Source: Patagioenas fasciata (taxonomy: Eukaryota > Chordata > Aves > Columbiformes > Columbidae). Taken from it: 64,000 nt of DNA. Location of the stretch: contig NC_092522.1 of assembly GCF_037038585.1 (NCBI RefSeq), positions 124,168,661 to 124,232,660 of the forward strand, in the 5' to 3' direction. Shown here piece by piece: positions 623 through 38,417 of the stretch. The position numbers were made by a program, and so were the translations under genes. How positions within the stretch are numbered: position 1 is the stretch's first letter; each line of letters opens with the position of its first letter. The notes under the pieces were generated by a model. It was given only the letters and a program-made list of their open reading frames with translations, did not search any database and was not told the origin of the DNA.

Positions 623-865
623 CTGCTGCCCGGCGTGGAGCTGCTGGCAGCCGGGGCTGGGGAACCGGGGCGCAGGGCCGCTCTCCTCCGCTGGCAGCAC
701 ACAGGATCCATCATCTCGCGGTGCAGACGCCCGGCCGAGGTCAGCGGTGGGCAAGCCGGGGATCTGGGTGGCCACCAGCACCCCCTCGGCCAAGGCGGCG
801 GGGGCAGAGACGCGGGTGCCGAGCAGGGAGCGCTTCCCCAGCCGCCTGGACAGCACGCTCGCCAT
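623..865 (-). CDS. SLC2A4RG: First coding exon of a ZNF395/SLC2A4RG-family zinc-finger transcription factor (partial gene)
   Basis: This exon encodes the N-terminal 81 residues, starting MASVLSRRLGKRSLLG and ending LHAGQQ in phase 0. Seen: a polypyrimidine acceptor (TTCTGTTCCGCAG) before base 875, ten untranslated bases, the ATG at 865, and a consensus donor (CAGCAG/GTACGT) after 623. The start matches the N-terminus I recall for ZNF395. In that family the next segment is the PGQ-KVYVWY block, which fits an exon ending in AGQQ. Family members are nuclear C2H2 factors; SLC2A4RG (GEF/HDBP1) binds the GLUT4 gene promoter. The zinc finger and the basic C-terminal KKCRKVYG block would lie left of the window. 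SLC2A4RG is preferred over ZNF395 because the LIME1-like gene follows in the human order. ZNF395 remains the main alternative. Confidence 0.78.
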
Positions 866-20520: not shown

Positions 20521-21128
20521 CTACACCACATCGAATCGCTTCTCCGGCAGCGCTGGAGGTGCTTCTTCTTGGGGTTCGGGGGGGCTGTGGGGCTGCCGGG
20601 GCTGTGTTCCCCGGGGCGGTTTGCACACCCGGGCGTACACAGGGCCGGGGTCCCCCTCGCTGCCCAGCTCCTCCTGGGCTGTGATGTCCAGCTCGGGGAC
20701 ACTCGGTTCATCCCCTGTGGTCAGGAACGGGGAGTCCCCCGAGTCACCCAGAGTGCTCCTGGCATCCTGAGGCTTTTTCAGCGTCCCGGGTTTGTACCGG
20801 ATGCTTTCGTAGATTCGTCCCTCGGCATCCGGCACAGGGTCCGTTGTGGCGGTGCTGGCATCCCCAGGCAGGACCGGCAGCTGCCGGTGCCGCAGGAACT
20901 CGGGGGTTCTCGAGGACGGGCTGGGAGGTGCGCGGGAATGGGGTGTCCAGCCCGGCACGTGGAGCTTGGGGTCCCGCACAGCGGGGTTATCCGTGTCCCC
21001 CCACACCGCTGGGCTGTTCTCCTGCTGCCGGGGATCACCGGGAGATGGGGTGTCTGCGGGAGGGACGGGGGGATGCTGAGCTGGGGAGTGTTCCCCCAAA
21101 TCCTGCTGTGCTGGGGGGGCATCGCTGG
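20521..21128 (-). CDS. LIME1: LIME1-like coding exon 3: signalling tail and stop
   Basis: The acceptor CCCCTCGCATTAG starts the exon with CC, completing a GCC codon from exon 2. It encodes about 201 residues with the YESI and YARVCKP motifs and two proline-rich blocks (RQLPVLP; EEAPPALPEK). It ends FDVV-TAG. This is the best supported exon of the gene. Confidence 0.72.
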
Positions 21129-24100
21129 CTAATGCGAGGGGATCATAGCAAGTAAATGGGATTAAATGGGCCTCACTCCTACTTCTGTCCCCACTCTTTG
21201 CTTTTAGTGAGAAGGATCAGAATCATCAGATCATTTTGGTTGGAAGAGACCCTCAAGATCATCGAGTCCAACCATACCCCACCCCTGTGACTGCCCCATG
21301 TCCTGAGAACCTCATGTCCGTCTGTCCAGCCCTCCAGGGATGGTGACTCCAGCACTGCCCTGGGCAGCCTGTTCCAATGCCCCACAGCCCTTTGGGGAAG
21401 AAATTGTTCCCACGTCCAACCTCAGCCTCCCCTGGTGCAACTTGAGGCCGTTTCCTCTGCTCCTAAAAGACAACCAAAAGGACAGAAGAAGCAGGGGAGC
21501 ACCCCGGGTTGCTGGGGAGCTGTGCTCCGCCCGCGGGGCCAGCGCGGCGTCAGGACCTGCCGCTCGCCTCTGCTCAAATATTGATTTAGAAGGAGGCTCC
21601 TCTGCGTGCGCGGATCTGTGAACACGGGGCTGGCCGAGCAGGACACCCGGCCGGTTTGGTTGCTCTGAAGGTGAACGAGGTTGTGGAAAAGCTGCAGAAC
21701 CGGGTGTTCCACCCCAACGTGAGCACCCCAATGTGAATGCCCCACTGTGGGCACTCCAGTGTAAACACCTCCAGTGTGAGCACCCCAGCACAAGCATGTC
21801 CTGACCCCCCCCCCCCCCCAACACGGGCACCACAACACGAGCACCCCAAAATTAGCATCTCAGTTTGAGCACCTTCAATATGAGCACCCCAGCACAAGCA
21901 CCCCGATGTGAGCACCCCAACATTAGCATCCCAGCTTGAGCATCCCAACATGAGCACTCTGGTTAGCACCCCAGAATGAGCACCCCAAGTATCCCAAAGG
22001 GAACATCCCAACCTGAGCACCCCAAAACAGACACCTCAGTGTGAGCACCCCAACAGAAACACCACAACACGAGCATCTCAATGTGAGCACCCCAATGTGA
22101 GCACCCTAGCCTAGGCACCTCAACATGAGCACCCCAATGTATGTGTCCCAGCCTAAGCACCCCAACATGAGGACCCGAGTGTGAGCATCCAAATGTGAGC
22201 ACCCCAACATGAGCATCTCAATGTGGGCACCCCAACATGAGCACCCCAAATGTGAGCACCCTTGTGTGAACACCCCAAACATGAGCATCTCGATGTGAGC
22301 ACCCCAGTCTGAGCACCCCAACATGAGCATCCCAATGTGAGCACCCCAGCATGAGCACCCCAATGTGAATGCCCCACTGTGAGCACCCCAATGTAAACTC
22401 CAGTACAAGCACCCCAACACAAGCACCCCAACATGGGCACCCCAACATAAGTATCCCAGCTTGAGCACCCCAATATGAGCACCCCAGCATGAGCACCCGC
22501 AGTGTGAGCACCCCAACATAGGCAACTCAATGTGAGCATCCCAGCCTAAGCACCCCAAAGTGAGCATCTAAATGTGAGCACCCCAATATGAGCTGCCCAT
22601 CATGAGCACCCCAACATGATCACTGCAATATGAGCACCTCAACATGAGCATCTCAAAGGGACTACCTCAGTCTGAGCTCCCCCTTGTGAGCACCCCAGTC
22701 TAAGCACCCCAAAGTGAGCATCTAAATGTGGGCACCCCAACATTAGCGCTCTGTTATTACCCCAGCATGAGCATCCCAGCATGAGCACCCCAGTGTGCAC
22801 ATCCTGACATGGGCACCCCAGCATGAGCACCCCAACACAAGCGCTCCAATGTGAGCACCCCAACATGGGCCTCCCATGTGAGCACTCCAACATGGACATC
22901 TCAACGTGAGCACCCCAACGTGAGCATCCCATTGTGAGAACTCCAGTATGGACACCCCAACGCGAACACCCCAACATGAGCATCTCGATGTGAGCACCCC
23001 AACCTGAGCACCCCAACCTGAGCATCCCATTGTGAGAACCCCAGTATGGACACCCCAGCGTGAACACCCCAACACGAACATCTTGATGTGAGCACCCCAA
23101 CCTGAGCACCCCAACATGAGCATCCCATTGTGAGAACTCCAGTATGGACACCCCAACGTGAACACCCCAACACAAACATCTTGATGTGAGCACCCCAACA
23201 TGAGCATCCCATTGTGAGAACTCCAGTATGGACACCCCAACACGAACACCCCAACACGAACATCTTGATGTGAGCACCCCAACCTGAGCATCCCATTGTG
23301 AGAACCCCAGTATGGACACCCCAACACGAACACCCCAACATGAACATCTCAATGTGAGCACCCCAACATGAGCATCCCATTGTGAGAACCCCAGTATGGA
23401 CACCCCAATGTGAACACCCCAACATGAGCATCTCAGTGTGAGCACCCCAACCTGAGCACCTCAATGTGAGCATCCCCATGTGAGCACCCCAAAACGAGCA
23501 TCTCAATGTGGGCACCCCAACATCAGCGCCCCAGTGTGAGCACCCCAACATGAGGATCCCACCATGAGCCCCCAATGTGAGCACCCCAACCGCCCACATC
23601 CCGCCTGTGCACCCTGAGGGGCTGAGGCTTCACATTTGGGGTGTCCCTTCCCCACCCCACTGCAGCAAAGGGGGGAAACACAACAAGGGAGCCCCAGGAA
23701 TGGGGTATGGGGGGGACACCCCATAAAATACCCAGCAGCCCCCATGGCAGCCCAGGGAGGAGCAGGAATTTCACTTGAGCATCTCAGCTGCAGCATGGCC
23801 AGACGTGGCAATTAAGACATGGGGTTTAATTATCCTCGTTAGCCAGCGGTGCTGATTAAAGCAAACGGGCTGATTCCTTAATCTGGTTGGAGGGTTTGAA
23901 GCATTAAAACACCTCTTTTTTTAACACTTTCCCATGGCAATTCCCTTTCTGAGAGCAGGACGGGGATCGTGAGCATCTGGCACGGTCCTCCTGGTGGGAC
24001 TGGGACTCCCAGTGGGTTTTACTGGGATATTCTGCTGTAACTGGGAATTTTAGGAGCTGATTTTGGATGCCTGTGCAGCCTCCTGCGACCCCCTTCACCA

Positions 24101-26843
24101 TATCATGGGGTGTCTCCATCATCTCCTCCGTGCCCGGGAAGCGAGAGGGGCCACTCGCCGCTAACAAGCTTCACTCATTTCCCCCGTTTTGGCTGCTGGG
24201 GGCTTTAGGGGTGCAGCCCCCCTATGTCTGGCCAAGGGCCGGCTCAAAGTCCCATCACCTCCAAGTTCATCAGCCGGGCAAATCATTAACCGGGCTGGCT
24301 CGGTGTCACCAGGCTGAGCCTCGGGGACCTTCGGACCGTGGCACCCAGCTCGGTGACACCGGGGTGGCCGTTCCCCGAGGCATGGCCACTGTCCCAGTGT
24401 GGGGGGTCCCTGGCCTGCTGCACCCCAAACCTGCGGCGGGGGCCGGGGAGGGCCCAGGTGACACCCAGCATCCACATCCAGGTGTGCGAGGGCCCTGGGA
24501 GCACCCGCAGAGGGACGTGGCCACCTCCTTGTTCCCAGCGTGTCACCTACCTCCCGGCAGCGCTGTCCCCCCGTCGCCGGAGCCCAGCCTGGCCAGCTTC
24601 ACCTGCAACAGCAACGAGGGGACACTTGCATATTGACCCCCCAGGACTTGTGCACACCCCCCCCAAACTTGTGCATCACCCCAAAACCTGTGCATTGCCC
24701 CCCAGCACTTCTGCACCCCCCAGCACTTCCACATCCTGCCCATTTGTGCATCCCCCCCAACACTTTTGCACCCCCCAACACTTGTGCACCCCCCAGCACT
24801 TGTGCGCCCCCCAGCACTTGTGCACCCCTCGCATTTGTGCATGCCCCCCAACACTTTTGCATCCCCCAGCACTTCTGCACCCCCCAGCCCTTGTGTGCGC
24901 CCCCCAGCACTTCTGCACCCCCTAACACTTGTGTGCCCCCCCAGCACTTGTGCATCCCCCCCCAAAACTTGTGTGTTGCCCCCCCAAGACTTGTGCGCCC
25001 CCCCAGCACTTCTGCATCCCTCTCCAACACTTGTGCACCCCCCCAGCTCTTCTGCACCCCCAGCATTTGTGCACCCCCCAGCACTTCCGCATCCTGCCCA
25101 TTTGTGCATCGCCCCCAACACTTTTGCACCCCCCTGCAGTTGTGCATCCCCCCCAGCCCTTGCGTGCCCCCCCAAACTTGTACATTGCTCCCCAGCACTT
25201 GTGCACCCCCCAGCACTTGTGCACCCCCCAACACTCGTGCACCGCACAGCTCTTCTGCACCCCTCAGCACTTCTGCATCCCCCTCCCAACACTTGTGCAC
25301 CCCCCCAGCACTTGTGCAACCACCCCAACACTTGTGTACCCCCCAGCTTTTCTGCACCCCCCTGCACTTGTGCATCCCCCAACACTCGTGCATTGGCCCC
25401 CAGCACTTGTGCACCCCCCAGCACTTGTGCATCTTCCCCCAACACTTGTGCACCCCTCCAGCTCTTCTGCATCCCCCCCAACACTTGTGCACCCCCCAAC
25501 ACTTGTGCACCCCCCAACACTTGCATCTCCCCAGCACTTGTGCATCCCCCCCAGCAATCATGCCCGCCCCCCAGCACTTGTGCATCCCCTCTGGCAATTT
25601 TGCATCCTCCCAGGCACTCGTGCACCCCCCCCAGTACATCTGCATCCCCCCCACGTCTGCATCCCCCCCACGTCTGCATCCCCCCCAGCACCTGTGCATT
25701 GTGCCTGACCCTTGTTCACACCCCCTGCGACTTGTGCATCACCCCCCAAAATTTGTGCACCGCCCCCCCAGTACTTCTCCATCCTCTCCTGGCATTTATC
25801 TATTCCCCAAGCACTCATCCACCCCCCAATTGTGTGTGTCCCCCCCGCCCCGCATCCCCCGTGGGCACTTGTGCACCCCTCAGCACTTGTGCATCATCCC
25901 CCAGGAGCTGTGCACCCCCCGTGTCACTCGGGCCTGGGGTCATCAGTGCAGGTGTTGGGGGGCTCAGAGGACCCTAGAATTTTTTGGGGGGTTGCGTCAG
26001 TGTGGGAAAATATGGGTGGGGGGCGGCTGCCCCCAGCCAGCATCAACCAGTTCCAACTGGGGCGGGAGGGGGCACCCGTATCCCCCCTGCAAACCCCGGG
26101 GACGGGGCACCCACAGGGTCACACTGTGGCCAGGGCCACCCGCTGTCCCCACCCCCTTGTCCCCCACCCCATTTCCCCCCCGCCGCCCCAGCCCTGATGC
26201 TCTTTGGGTGAATTTGGGGTGAGGTGCGCGATGTTCCCCGTGCTGACGCTGGAGGGCTGTCAAAGCACACGGTACACGGTGGGACAGGGGACAGGGGGTG
26301 ACAGGCCGCTGTCCCCTCAGCCCACCGCCTCACTGGGACGAGCAGGGACAAGGCGCCACCCAAGGGGCTGGGGGACACCCTGGGGACTGACCCCTCTGAT
26401 AAGCCCCGTGTCTTCCTCCATTTTTGGGGTAGGAAACGGCCGTTTTGTCCTGCAGGAAAAGGGAGAGGTCAGTGCTGTCACCTCGGGGATGCTCAGACCA
26501 GGGTGACACGGACCCCCCGCCCCGTTCCCTCCCTTCACTGCTCTTTGTTTATTCACCCCTGTGTCCCCTGCCCCAGCGCTTGTCCCCACCCCAGGTTGGT
26601 GGCACCCAGATGTCACCGTGCCAGCACGGACAGTGACCCCCCCATCCATGGCATTTCCCCAGAGCCCCCAATATCCATGACAAACACTCGGGAAGAAGCC
26701 AAATCCCCCCGTTTTACCCCCAAAAAGCGAAGGTACCTGTGGAAGAAGGAGCAGAGGAGGAGCAGGAGCAGGATGGTGGCCAAGCCCCAGGCCACTGTGG
26801 CCACCGCAGCCACCGCGGCCACCGAGCCCAGTGCCGGGGCCAT
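20521..26843 (-). CDS. LIME1: LIME1-like transmembrane adaptor protein, three coding exons, 261 residues
   Basis: Coding exons 26843-26718, 24602-24551 and 21128-20521 total 786 bases including the TAG. Each junction has GT...AG and phases match (0, then 1). The protein has a short N-terminus, one membrane segment (about residues 7-30) followed by C31 and HRYLR, then a Pro/Ser-rich tail. The tail holds RQLPVLP (141-147), YESI (166) and YARVCKP (224-230), and ends RFDVV. Human LIME1 (295 residues) has VYESIREL and LYSRVCKPKR. The related PAG1 has RELPRIPP and YESI. Such adaptors sit in the membrane of lymphocytes, are phosphorylated by Src-family kinases and recruit Csk and Lck. Odd: only two or three tyrosines, motif order reversed relative to human LIME1, and one juxtamembrane Cys rather than CxxC. 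Adjacency to the SLC2A4RG-like gene supports LIME1. Further exons hidden among the repeats cannot be excluded. Confidence 0.68.
21129..21217 (-). other. LIME1-like intron 2, acceptor end
   Basis: Short unique stretch carrying the acceptor between the CR1 insertion and coding exon 3. Confidence 0.55.
21218..21465 (-). mobile_element. CR1 LINE 3' fragment inside LIME1-like intron 2
   Basis: Minus-strand copy of the AGTTGCACCAGGGGAGG subfamily. Its tail (GATCATTTTGGTTGGAAGAG on the plus strand) is at the low-coordinate end, about 90 bases from the exon 3 acceptor. Confidence 0.92.
21720..23590. repeat. 14-bp minisatellite with higher-order repeats, LIME1-like intron 2
   Basis: The basic unit is GAGCACCCCAACAT and variants, 14 bp, for about 1.87 kb. 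Between about 22900 and 23460 a block starting CATCCCATTGTGAGAAC recurs at 22925, 23023, 23121, 23205, 23289 and 23373. Spacing is 98, 98, 84, 84 and 84, that is seven or six monomers. It fills more than half of the intron. Confidence 0.93.
23591..24550 (-). other. LIME1-like intron 2, unique part next to exon 2
   Basis: Unique GC-rich sequence. An open minus-strand frame at 24161-24475 shows no adaptor motif and no clear splice sites, so it is not called an exon. Confidence 0.4.
24551..24602 (-). CDS. LIME1: LIME1-like coding exon 2
   Basis: A 52-base exon with an excellent acceptor (TTGCTGTTGCAG) and donor (GGGAG/GTAGGT). It encodes VKLARLGSGDGGTALPG and leaves one base for the next codon. 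It sits between two large minisatellite arrays, which makes it easy to miss. Confidence 0.6.
24640..25930. repeat. 18-bp C-rich minisatellite, LIME1-like intron 1
   Basis: The unit is CACTTGTGCACCCCCCAG with length variants of about 17-21 bp, some 70 copies. It makes very long false open frames on both strands. The transcribed (minus) strand product is G-rich with repeated GGGGGG runs, so the intron RNA could form G-quadruplexes. Confidence 0.93.
26718..26843 (-). CDS. LIME1: LIME1-like coding exon 1: start codon and membrane segment
   Basis: The acceptor TCTCTCCCCCAG lies nine bases upstream of the ATG. The exon encodes 42 residues: MAPALGSVAAV, then the hydrophobic stretch WGLATILLLLLLCSFF, then HRYLRFLG. 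The donor chosen is GGG/GTAAAA, since it leaves phase 0 to match the next exon. A slightly earlier donor (CAG/GTACCT after 26737) would put a stop straight after the junction, unless an unseen exon intervenes. Confidence 0.65.
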
Positions 26844-27029
26844 GGAGTGGAGCTGGGGGAGAGATGAGCCCCGGGTCAGGCCGGTTTGGGGGGACTGGGG
26901 TGATAACGGGGTGCGCAGGGCTGCTGAGGGGGTGCTGGGGGGAAATCCCGTTCTCCCTTTAATTTCAGGGACAATTTCCCCAGTGATCACTCCCCAGCCC
27001 TTCACCCTAGTGGGGTGCACAGTGTCACC

Positions 27030-27880
27030 CCCCCCTCAGCATGGGAGGTAATACTGCGGTGTGGGGGTGATGCTGGGGGCTGGGGGTGATGCTGGGTAAT
27101 GGGGGGCGATGCTGGGATGTGGGGGGTGATGCTGGGGGGGCTGATGCGAGGGCATTGGGGGAAGATGGTGGAGTGTGGGAGGTGATGCTGGGATGTGGGG
27201 GGTGATGCTGGGGGGTGAGGGGTTGATGCTGGAATGTGGGGGTGATTCTGGGGGGGTGGGGTGTGATTCTGGGGTGTGGGAGGTGATACTGGGATGTGGG
27301 GGGTGATGCTGGGGGGTGGGGGGTTGATACTGGAATGTGGGGGGTGATGCTGGGGGGGTGGGGTGTGATTCTGGGGTGTGGGAGGTGATGCTGGATTGTG
27401 GGGGGTGATGCTGGGGGGCTGATGCTGGGGCATTGGGTGGTGTGGGGGTGATGCTGGATTGTGGGGGGTGATGCTGGGGGCTGATGCTGGGGCATTGGGG
27501 GAAGATGCTGGGGTGTGGGGGGTGATGCTGGATTGTGGGGGGTGATGCTGGGGGGTGTGGGAGGTGATGCTGAGATGTGGGGGGTGATGCTGGGATGTGG
27601 GGGGTGATGCTGGGGGGTTGATGCTGGAATGTGGGGGGTGATGCTGGGGGTGTAGGGTGTGATTCTGGGGTTTGGGGAGTGATGCTGGGTAATGGGGGAG
27701 TGATGCTGGGATGTGGGGGTGGTGCTGGGGGGTGGGGGTGATGTTGGGTAATAGGGGGTGATGATGGGGTGTAAGGAGCGACGCTGAGCTTCGAGGGTGA
27801 TACTGGGGAGTGGGGGGGGGTGATGCTGGGGGTCGGGGAGTGATGCCTGGGGGGTGATGCCATTGTCCCAGGCATCCCCA
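27030..27880. repeat. 20-bp G-rich minisatellite, 5' intron of the LIME1-like gene
   Basis: The unit is GATGCTGGGATGTGGGGGGT with many length variants, about 40 copies. It lies between the candidate non-coding first exon and the ATG exon. G-runs on the plus strand mean a C-rich transcript. Confidence 0.92.
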
Positions 27881-28383
27881 CCTTTTCCCCACCTGGGTGC
27901 CCCCAAACCCGCACCGAGCACATGGAGCCCCCCGCTTTGAGAAAACACATTCCCAGCCTCTCCCCAAAAAATCCTGAATCCTCCTCCTCCCCAAGCCCCC
28001 CCGCCTAAAACTTGGGGTGACCGAGCTCCCCCGGCCAGCCCGGCAAACCGAAACGTCAAGCAGGCCGAGCCCGTTCTGCCGGCTGTGACTCAGCTTCCCG
28101 GCACGACACCCCGAGCCCCGGAGCCGTGTGGGGGTTCAGGGACCCCCCCAGCTCCAGCAGCCCCAGGATCGGGACCCCCCATTGGGTGCAATGACAGGCA
28201 AACAAGCCCTGAGCCCATCCTGCCTCAGTTTCCCCAGCTGGACCCTGAGACGATTGGGATCGGCTCAAAGTGCCTCCCCACACCCCACCCTGCTCGGGCA
28301 CCCCAACCCGGGGTGGGGATGGGGCTGGGGACACCCCATGGCTCAGGACCCCCCTGATTCCCACCCCTGAGGACACCACTCAC

Positions 28384-28510
28384 CCCACGGCAGTGCCGGA
28401 CCCACGGGGACGGGCACAACCGGCTCCTCTGGGTGCTCGGCGCGGGACGGGAGGGGTGGTTGGGTGGCACCCGCCGCACCCCGCTTCCTGCTCCCGCGGG
28501 ACGTGTCTGC
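28384..28510 (-). promoter_or_regulatory. Candidate LIME1-like first exon and promoter
   Basis: On the minus strand a GC-rich segment ends in GCCGTGGG/GTGAGTGG after 28384. Its upstream part holds GAGCAGGAAGCGGG, an Ets/PU.1-type core common in TATA-less leukocyte promoters. Downstream, within the putative intron, is GCTGAGTCAC (about 28085-28095), an AP-1 site. The acceptor before 26852 requires an upstream non-coding exon, and this is the best candidate. Start site not determined. Confidence 0.4.
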
Positions 28511-36708: not shown

Positions 36709-37547
36709 ATATGGTGACATTTGGTGGAGTATTTGGGCATTTTTTATCTTTTGTTTTGAACTCCAAATACAGAAATTGGATATGCAGTGTGGTTAAACCA
36801 AGTTGAAGCTGGCAGAAAAAGGACTTAAAGTGAAAAAGAATGGTTGGAGATAAAAGAGGGTGCGTACAAGAGCCAAACAACAGCTCCAAAGGCAGATTTG
36901 ACAGGAGAAGAGCGAATGAATGCACAAAACTCAAGCCTCCTAGTGAACACAATAGCCCGGAACAATACGGAATTGTTAAAACAAAAAAAGGGAAGAAAAA
37001 ATACAGCAAATAAGTTCAGAGCAGTCGGGTTTCTTGCCAAGAGCATTTTCACATGATTGAATATAATAAAATAAAGTGTTGGCAGAGCTCTGCCTGAAGA
37101 TGATGGGATGGAGGAGAAGAAGTGGCAGCGAGGGGGGTACGGCGATGAGGCCAGGGGAGCAAGAATCGCTTTGTGTTGTTCCCCGAGCGATGGCTGGTGA
37201 CGCTCCCGGGCCCGCGGGATGCCGGCAGCTCTCTTCAAAGCGAGCGGGGATTGCGGTATTGATCTCAAGTGGAAAATATGCGGTGATGTATAGTAGAACC
37301 AGCCACGGGCCAGCCGGCAGGATGAAGGGAATCTTTCTTACAAAAGAAAATTGAGTGTAACTGAGGGTCGTAGCGACTGTACCCGCCTGCTGATATTGCA
37401 CGCGAGCTCCGCTCCGTCTGATCCCTGCTCGGAGAGGAAGGAGGGAGGCAGAGCTACTGCTGCAACAAGATGATTTGGGAGAGCGATGAGGCACATTCAG
37501 TTAGGAACATCTGTTTCCCATCGCCTGCACTGATGCCTGGGATCCCA
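36709..37547. other. Unique intergenic sequence
   Basis: No defensible exon or repeat. Confidence 0.4.
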
Positions 37548-38047
37548 TCCCATCACATCCCATCCCATCCCATCCCATCCCATCCCATCCCACTCTGTCT
37601 CATCCCATCCCCATCCTGCCCCATCCCGTCCGATCCCATCCCATCCCATCCCATCCCATCCCATCCCATCCCATCCCGTCCCATCACATCCCATCCCATC
37701 CCATCCCATCCCATCCCATCCCATCCCCATACCGTCCCATCCCATCACATCCCATCCCCATCCCATCCCCATCCCATCCCATCCCATCCCACTCCGTCTC
37801 ATCCCATCCCCATCCTGCCCCATCCCATCCCATCCCATCCCGTCCCGTCCCATCCCATCCCATCCCATCCCATCCCATCCCATCCCATCCCATCCCATCC
37901 CATCCCCATCCTGCCCCATCCCGTCCCATCCCATCCCATCCCATCCCGCCCCGTCCCATCCCCATCCAATCACATCCCATTCTGTCCCATCCCATCCCAT
38001 CCCATCCCATCCCATCCCATCCCATCCCATCCCATCCCATCCCATCC
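37548..38047. repeat. CCCAT pentanucleotide satellite
   Basis: About 500 bp of CATCC/CCCAT units with occasional CCGTC, CACTCCGTCTC and CCATCCTGCCC variants. A longer variant block (CTCATCCCATCCCCATCCTG) occurs twice, near 37600 and 37799, showing internal duplication. Confidence 0.97.
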
Positions 38048-38417
38048 CCAAAGCCTCTTGGAGAACACTGGAAGCCCACAGATTTTCACCATTTCACTAT
38101 TACATCCCTATTTCAGAGCTTTTTGCAACCAAAACATTGGAACAGGGAAGGGATTTTTTGCTTTGTAGCAGGGGCCACAAAGGGGTGTTGTATTTCCAGG
38201 CCTTAATGCAGAGTTTTTGGGCCAAAGTGGGAAAATCCAGGACTGTAACTGATAGGTGACTGTTACCCACCAATGTACAAACCAAGCACAGATTCCTGAA
38301 TGTGTGTGTTGGAGAAAGCTTCTTGTTTTCTGCAGTGGTTTCTGGAGGTGAAATGCTGGGGGGTGAGCAGAGGGATCAGGAGGAGAAGCAGCATCTCTGA
38401 GAGCACCCACTGCACTT
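38048..38417. other. Unique intergenic sequence
   Basis: No recognisable feature. Confidence 0.4.

Follow-up and report, generated by a model that had tools for sequence, protein, structure and literature searches.

The window, a stretch of 64,000 nucleotides of the Patagioenas fasciata genome (C3:124168661-124232660, on a contig of 126.4 Mb; contigs C2, C3, C20 and C32 named below belong to the same genome), contains a multi-exon gene on the minus strand at positions 20521-28510, which is conserved across birds. A preliminary description of this locus had proposed a minus-strand gene of three exons, encoding 261 residues and identified as the bird LIME1. The gene stands, and the 261-residue model was rebuilt exactly; the three-exon structure does not, as it missed exon 2 and took the wrong last acceptor. 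The preferred model, obtained by combining nearby GT/AG sites on the minus strand of 20.3-28.7 kb, has four coding exons and encodes 249 residues (Table 1). A search of the whole genome with this protein returned this locus only: exon 1 was recovered at C3:124195387-124195503, and the self match of exon 4 had an E-value of 7.6e-113.

The two models part at two splice sites. The donor at 26718 used earlier reads through the donor at 26737 and skips the 58-nt exon at 26449-26392; by a consensus table, the scores of the two donors are 4.3 and 5.2, respectively. The acceptor at 21128 (gcattag) adds 25 residues and, within the four-exon path, would yield a protein of 274 residues, while the acceptor at 21053 (ccctcccgcag) has a better pyrimidine tract. 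None of the 41 homologues described below carries the read-through at 26718 or the searched parts of the 25 extra residues. Upstream of the coding exons, positions 28510-28384 are probably a 5′ untranslated exon, though the stretch is coding in the Columba livia model. In the models of Columba livia and Spheniscus (P0001 and P0002), sequence related to it precedes the conserved methionine. The encoded protein has a single strongly hydrophobic stretch, its tail contains three tyrosines, and the YESI and YARVCKP motifs are present, in agreement with the single-pass protein described before. The setting among minisatellites was also borne out, with three arrays found by Tandem Repeats Finder (TRF).

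Table 1. Exons of the gene, minisatellites between them and the start of the downstream neighbour (window coordinates).
Feature	Position	Strand	Details
Probable 5′ untranslated exon, upper end uncertain	28384..28510	-	donor GGG/GTGAGT, joined to acceptor 26852
Coding exon 1: Met, short outer part, transmembrane helix, juxtamembrane LCSFFHR	26737..26843	-	donor CAG/GTACCT, phase 2
Coding exon 2, 58 nt, RTKRPFPTPKMEEDTGLIRG	26392..26449	-	good acceptor cttttcctgcag; leaves phase 0
Coding exon 3, 52 nt, VKLARLGSGDGGTALPG	24551..24602	-	donor GAG/GTAGGT, phase 1
Coding exon 4 with stop codon	20521..21053	-	RQLPVLP 129-135, IYESI 153-157, YARV 212-215, PALPEK 239-244
Minisatellite in intron 3, 14/42-bp unit	21816..23590		TRF
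Minisatellite in intron 2, unit of about 18 bp	24637..25699		TRF
Minisatellite between 5′ untranslated exon and exon 1, 20-bp unit	27042..27856		TRF
Start of ZNF395 (MASVLSRRLGKRSLLG..., DUF4772), downstream neighbour	773..865	-	open reading frame 623-1024, Pfam PF15997, E 1.9e-4, 22.6 bits

The 249-residue query retrieved 39 proteins at E ≤ 10, headed by Columba livia LOC135578956 (92% over 100% of the length, E 3.7e-144). A second search, with a profile of 13 sequences (the window protein and 12 of the first 39), brought the total to 41. Homologues of the window gene were found only in birds: all 23 named homologues are avian, the remaining 18 being without a name, and the profile search for relatives beyond birds (7,997 candidates scored after a word-sharing prefilter) added no named one among the 41. 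Pigeons, penguin, owls, cormorant, cuckoo, bustard, parrots, suboscine perching birds, crane, stork, godwit, hummingbird, takahe, swan, landfowl and eagle are represented, and there is no oscine songbird or ratite among the 23. The poor annotation suspected beforehand is evident, with most of the named homologues either entered as ‘uncharacterized’ or misnamed, for which ‘proline-rich protein 2-like’, ‘collagen alpha-1(I) chain-like’ and ‘titin-like’ are in use.

The exon junctions are well supported by the homologues. Junction 1 is covered by 22 of the 41, and in all 22 exon 1 runs into exon 2 with no extra residue. There is likewise none at junction 2 in 20/22, the other two being short by 3 residues, and none at junction 3 in 19/20, the last being longer by 22 residues. 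All four exons of P0003, P0005 and P0012 lie on contigs no longer than 2436, 1406 and 1370 bases, respectively. Since these are under half of the 6.3 kb that the gene spans here, the three represent spliced copies, on contigs that we infer to be assembled public reads. Two landfowl-like sequences, P0034 and P0035 (63 and 29 member sequences), have a different sequence upstream of exon 4, perhaps a retained intron 3 or an alternative first exon.

Counted over the homologues covering each site, RxLPxxP is present in 38/39, IYES[IV] in 38/40, YAx[VI] in 37/39 and Px[LV]Px[KR] in 39/39; Cys31 is present in 23/23. In P0015 and P0020, IYASI and YARG replace IYESI and YARV, and this lineage may be losing its tyrosine motifs. 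The C-terminus (residues 246-249) is FDVV or FDIL, PDZ-like, in pigeons and landfowl and FDVA, FDVG or LDVE elsewhere. The minisatellite-filled introns and the altered motifs of P0015 and P0020 might be expected if the gene were decaying or if GC-rich repeat DNA had produced an artefact. We nevertheless regard such an explanation as extremely improbable, as waterfowl, landfowl, pigeons, parrots, owls and suboscine perching birds share a homologous frame and homologous junctions, the motifs are nearly invariant and spliced copies occur in assembled contigs.

PAG1 and LIME1 each have a locus of their own in this genome. PAG1 lies at C2:31310230-31323814, where all five matches of a genome search with PF15347 fall, and is thus distinct from the window gene on C3. 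LIME1 was located at C20:6663022-6665230 by comparing mammalian LIME1 with the 30 kb upstream of a C-clamp locus on C20 (best E 1e-7). The C20 gene has five exons, encodes 357 residues with a CAAC juxtamembrane motif and stops ahead of SLC2A4RG on the same strand. The LIME1 family profile PF15332 gave no match in the whole genome, a negative that is uninformative because LIME1 is present on C20.

A profile of mammalian LIME1, built from 17 of 120 listed sequences, scored 95.7 bits with the C20 gene, 19.9 with PAG1 and 1.8 with the window protein, a value equalled by 2 of 200 shuffled decoys. Four other members of the window family scored from -1.0 to 11.3 bits, P0012 being the highest. Adding the C20 gene to the profile raised the score of the window protein to 9.7 bits, reached by none of 200 decoys, as would be expected of a relative. 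Conversely, a family profile (the window protein and 16 of the 41 homologues) matched six LIME1 sequences within the decoy range (5 to 161 of 200 decoys as high). The resemblance behind the earlier identification as bird LIME1 lies in the motifs: YARVCKP and YESIR recall mammalian YSRVCKP and VYESI, and the juxtamembrane LCxxxHR recalls LCTACHRK. Together with the 11.3 bits of P0012 under the mammal-only profile and the 9.7 bits just given, this speaks for orthology. However, the C20 gene beside SLC2A4RG has its own exons, phases and LIME1 signatures and surpasses the window protein by 95.7 bits to 1.8, and the window gene stands in a different block, next to ZNF395. Orthology with LIME1 is therefore very improbable, and this identity was rejected. 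LIME1 also differs from the window gene in its CxxC motif, LLRQTQLRSLSKSDTKLHEL and five coding exons. Both proteins carry RxLPxxP followed by tyrosine motifs, YxxVCK and YESI among them, but the order of YESI and YxxVCK is reversed between them.

The relationship to PAG1 is clearer. The family profile matched PAG1 exons 1-4 of the same bird with 21.8 bits (E 7.6e-9, 0 of 200 decoys as high), about as strongly as LIME1 and PAG1 match each other (19.9 bits). The alignment is colinear over nearly the whole length, covering the transmembrane helix, RELPSIPP, GPYEVLK, EYASV and the ELPPPVPMK segment. By these sequence comparisons, the window gene is closer to PAG1 than to LIME1. The proposal of a PAG/LIME-type transmembrane adaptor thus holds, and the protein search led to a family member related to, but different from, LIME1; a best match to an unrelated family, which would have told against the proposal, did not occur. 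On one exon, PAG1 carries in succession RxLPxxP, YExL, YAxV and an acidic PPPxPxK segment, as the window gene does with its own motifs. It differs in having CxxC and in continuing with additional, tyrosine-bearing coding sequence, while the window protein ends after PxLPxK and has three tyrosines. The extra tyrosines of PAG1 include its Csk site. All three genes encode a transmembrane helix and a juxtamembrane cysteine and share intron phases 2, 0 and 1, and in each the first intron splits an Arg codon right after the juxtamembrane Cys motif. LAT, NTAL/LAB, LAX, SIT and TRIM, listed as other transmembrane adaptors (PMC2803307), resemble the window protein in a short outside part, one transmembrane helix and a long tyrosine-bearing tail, but the Pfam scans gave no sequence link between them and the window family.

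Downstream of the gene lies the beginning of a second gene on the same strand. Its open reading frame scores below the curated cut-off of PF15997 (27), and in a genome search with this family (DUF4772) only this C3 gene was matched (E 0.2 and 0.4). The gene spans C3:124160302-124169525, with its zinc-finger and C-clamp exons to the left of the window. These exons, DUF4772 and the start MASVLSRRLGKRSLLG, with which human ZNF395 also begins, identify the neighbour as ZNF395. Nine of the ten window open reading frames scanned had no Pfam family.

A 70-residue query from the C3 C-clamp gene found strong loci on C3, at C2:31.431-31.445 Mb and at C20:6.673 Mb; three weaker matches, on C1, C48 and C3 (E 0.007-1), were not considered further. 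We assume that the loci on C2 and C20 are ZNF704 and SLC2A4RG, from their place beside PAG1 and LIME1 and from the human gene order (LIME1-SLC2A4RG at 20q13.33, PAG1-ZNF704 at 8q21 and ZNF395 at 8p21). Each strong C-clamp locus has one adaptor upstream of it in the same orientation, giving the pairs PAG1-ZNF704, LIME1-SLC2A4RG and window gene-ZNF395. The stop codon of the window gene is 19.7 kb from the start codon of ZNF395; about 7.6 kb separate the LIME1 stop from the first matched SLC2A4RG exon, and about 107 kb the last matched PAG1 exon from the first matched ZNF704 exon. Stathmin loci near the adaptor blocks, predicted in advance from human positions, were found at C2 31.83 Mb, C3 124.547 Mb and C20 6.561 Mb, about 0.5, 0.35 and 0.1 Mb from the respective adaptors. 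Published work describes ZNF395, SLC2A4RG and ZNF704 as the three related C-clamp proteins of their kind (PMC4999783, PMC5339479), and there are papers that name LIME1 together with SLC2A4RG and PAG1 together with ZNF704.

This three-way arrangement of adaptor, C-clamp and stathmin genes is consistent with the copying of one block during the early vertebrate genome duplications. An adaptor beside ZNF395 should, moreover, predate the split of birds and mammals, because mammals have ZNF395. We consider it highly likely that the window gene is a third, unnamed adaptor of the PAG1/LIME1 group, which stems from those duplications, was kept in birds and was apparently lost in mammals. A later copy of PAG1 (or LIME1) made in the bird lineage, and landing next to ZNF395 by chance, would agree with the restriction to birds so far and with a sequence clearly nearer PAG1. 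It seems unlikely, since the order and strand relative to the C-clamp gene match those at PAG1 and LIME1, stathmin lies near all three and a chance landing would need to reproduce the whole arrangement; in addition, just 21.8 bits are shared with PAG1 of the same bird. No bird LIME1, PAG1/LIME1 paralogue or PAG1/ZNF395 duplicate was found among the papers listed by searches of the open-licence literature.

Several observations weigh against descent of the window gene as a third member of this group. The PF15347 genome search gave no match at the window gene, and a Pfam scan of the 249- and 261-residue models found no family at E ≤ 10, including LIME1 and PAG. Across 23 family members, the same scan reported a PAG match for a single sequence (E 0.27 library-wide) and no match of LIME1 (PF15332), along with DUF6541 in two and SUZ-C in one. 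Comparison with mammalian LIME1 by hhalign aligned 25 columns with a probability of 8 and a pairwise E-value of 0.0043. The juxtamembrane CxxC of the PAG/LIME family is absent from the window protein, which has C31 alone, and its second cysteine occurs in 5/23 homologues. No reptile, amphibian or fish sequence is among the named homologues, and a fourth stathmin locus, on C32, has no C-clamp match beside it. The apparent absence from mammals draws on the profile search of the 7,997 candidates and on the human gene order. Searches of the PDB by sequence and by profile gave no match for the window protein or its family.

By holding Csk and Src-family kinases at the membrane, PAG1 and LIME1 form an important off-switch in the signalling of lymphocytes. 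RxLPxxP and PxLPxK would be SH3-type sites, YESI an SH2 site of the Src-family type and YAxV one of the Csk type. The conserved motifs suggest that the third adaptor may likewise serve at the membrane as a small docking protein for Csk and Src-family kinases. Its N-terminal tail would be short and lie outside, and a single membrane helix would lead to a cytoplasmic tail that is disordered. The SH3 domain of a Src-family kinase would dock on RxLPxxP, and the kinase would phosphorylate Tyr154 (IYESI) and Tyr212 (YAxV). The phosphorylated YESI would then hold the SH2 domain of a Src-family kinase, while phosphorylated YAxV would recruit Csk, which would switch off the kinase in the manner of PAG. 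Near the C-terminus, the PxLPxK segment may be a second SH3 site, and the membrane-proximal Cys31 is the likely palmitoylation site. Because most homologues covering this site have Cys31 alone instead of CxxC, the protein may be targeted to rafts less strongly than PAG1 or LIME1. In the literature, raft targeting by CxxC is described for LAT, LIME, NTAL and PAG (PMC2803307), Csk is reported to bind PAG pY314/317 and Fyn to bind its first proline-rich region and Y105.

The same gene could instead encode a positive scaffold that keeps a Src-family kinase active, or a dock for SH2 proteins other than Csk, which we hold to be possible but somewhat doubtful. YESI suits several SH2 domains, but YAxV suits Csk-type sites, and YAx[VI] is the form kept in the 37 of 39 homologues counted above. 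For LIME, published reports list recruitment of Lck, Fyn, Vav, Grb2, Gads, PI3K p85, SHP-2 and Csk, with overexpression promoting signalling in cell lines and LIME-deficient mice appearing nearly normal; Fyn activity is likewise reported to be capable of rising on binding to PAG.

Some further features were noted in and near the window. A tandem array of ATCCC, with about 100 copies, occupies positions 37542-38048. GC-rich stretches at 4.2-6.6, 9.4-10.0 and 57.1-58.2 kb are perhaps CpG islands (CpG uncounted) and have no assigned gene. About 36-40 kb to the left of the window, on the minus strand, lies a gene for a protein kinase (Pfam Pkinase, E 2e-21). It resembles STK35/PDIK1L, yet seems to fit neither, and may be a further relative in the same duplicated block.

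As for the group as a whole, the third adaptor points to a family that already comprised at least three members when birds and mammals diverged. The chances seem evenly balanced that this adaptor, kept by birds, lost by mammals and without the second cysteine in most of the bird sequences examined, may bring Csk and Src-family kinases to another part of the membrane than PAG1 and LIME1 do. The gene currently stands under uninformative names and can therefore be named and tested directly. Signalling work in chicken and DT40 cells that is read through mammalian gene lists would miss one component. If the proposed role is true, birds would have a third control point on antigen-receptor signalling without a mammalian counterpart.

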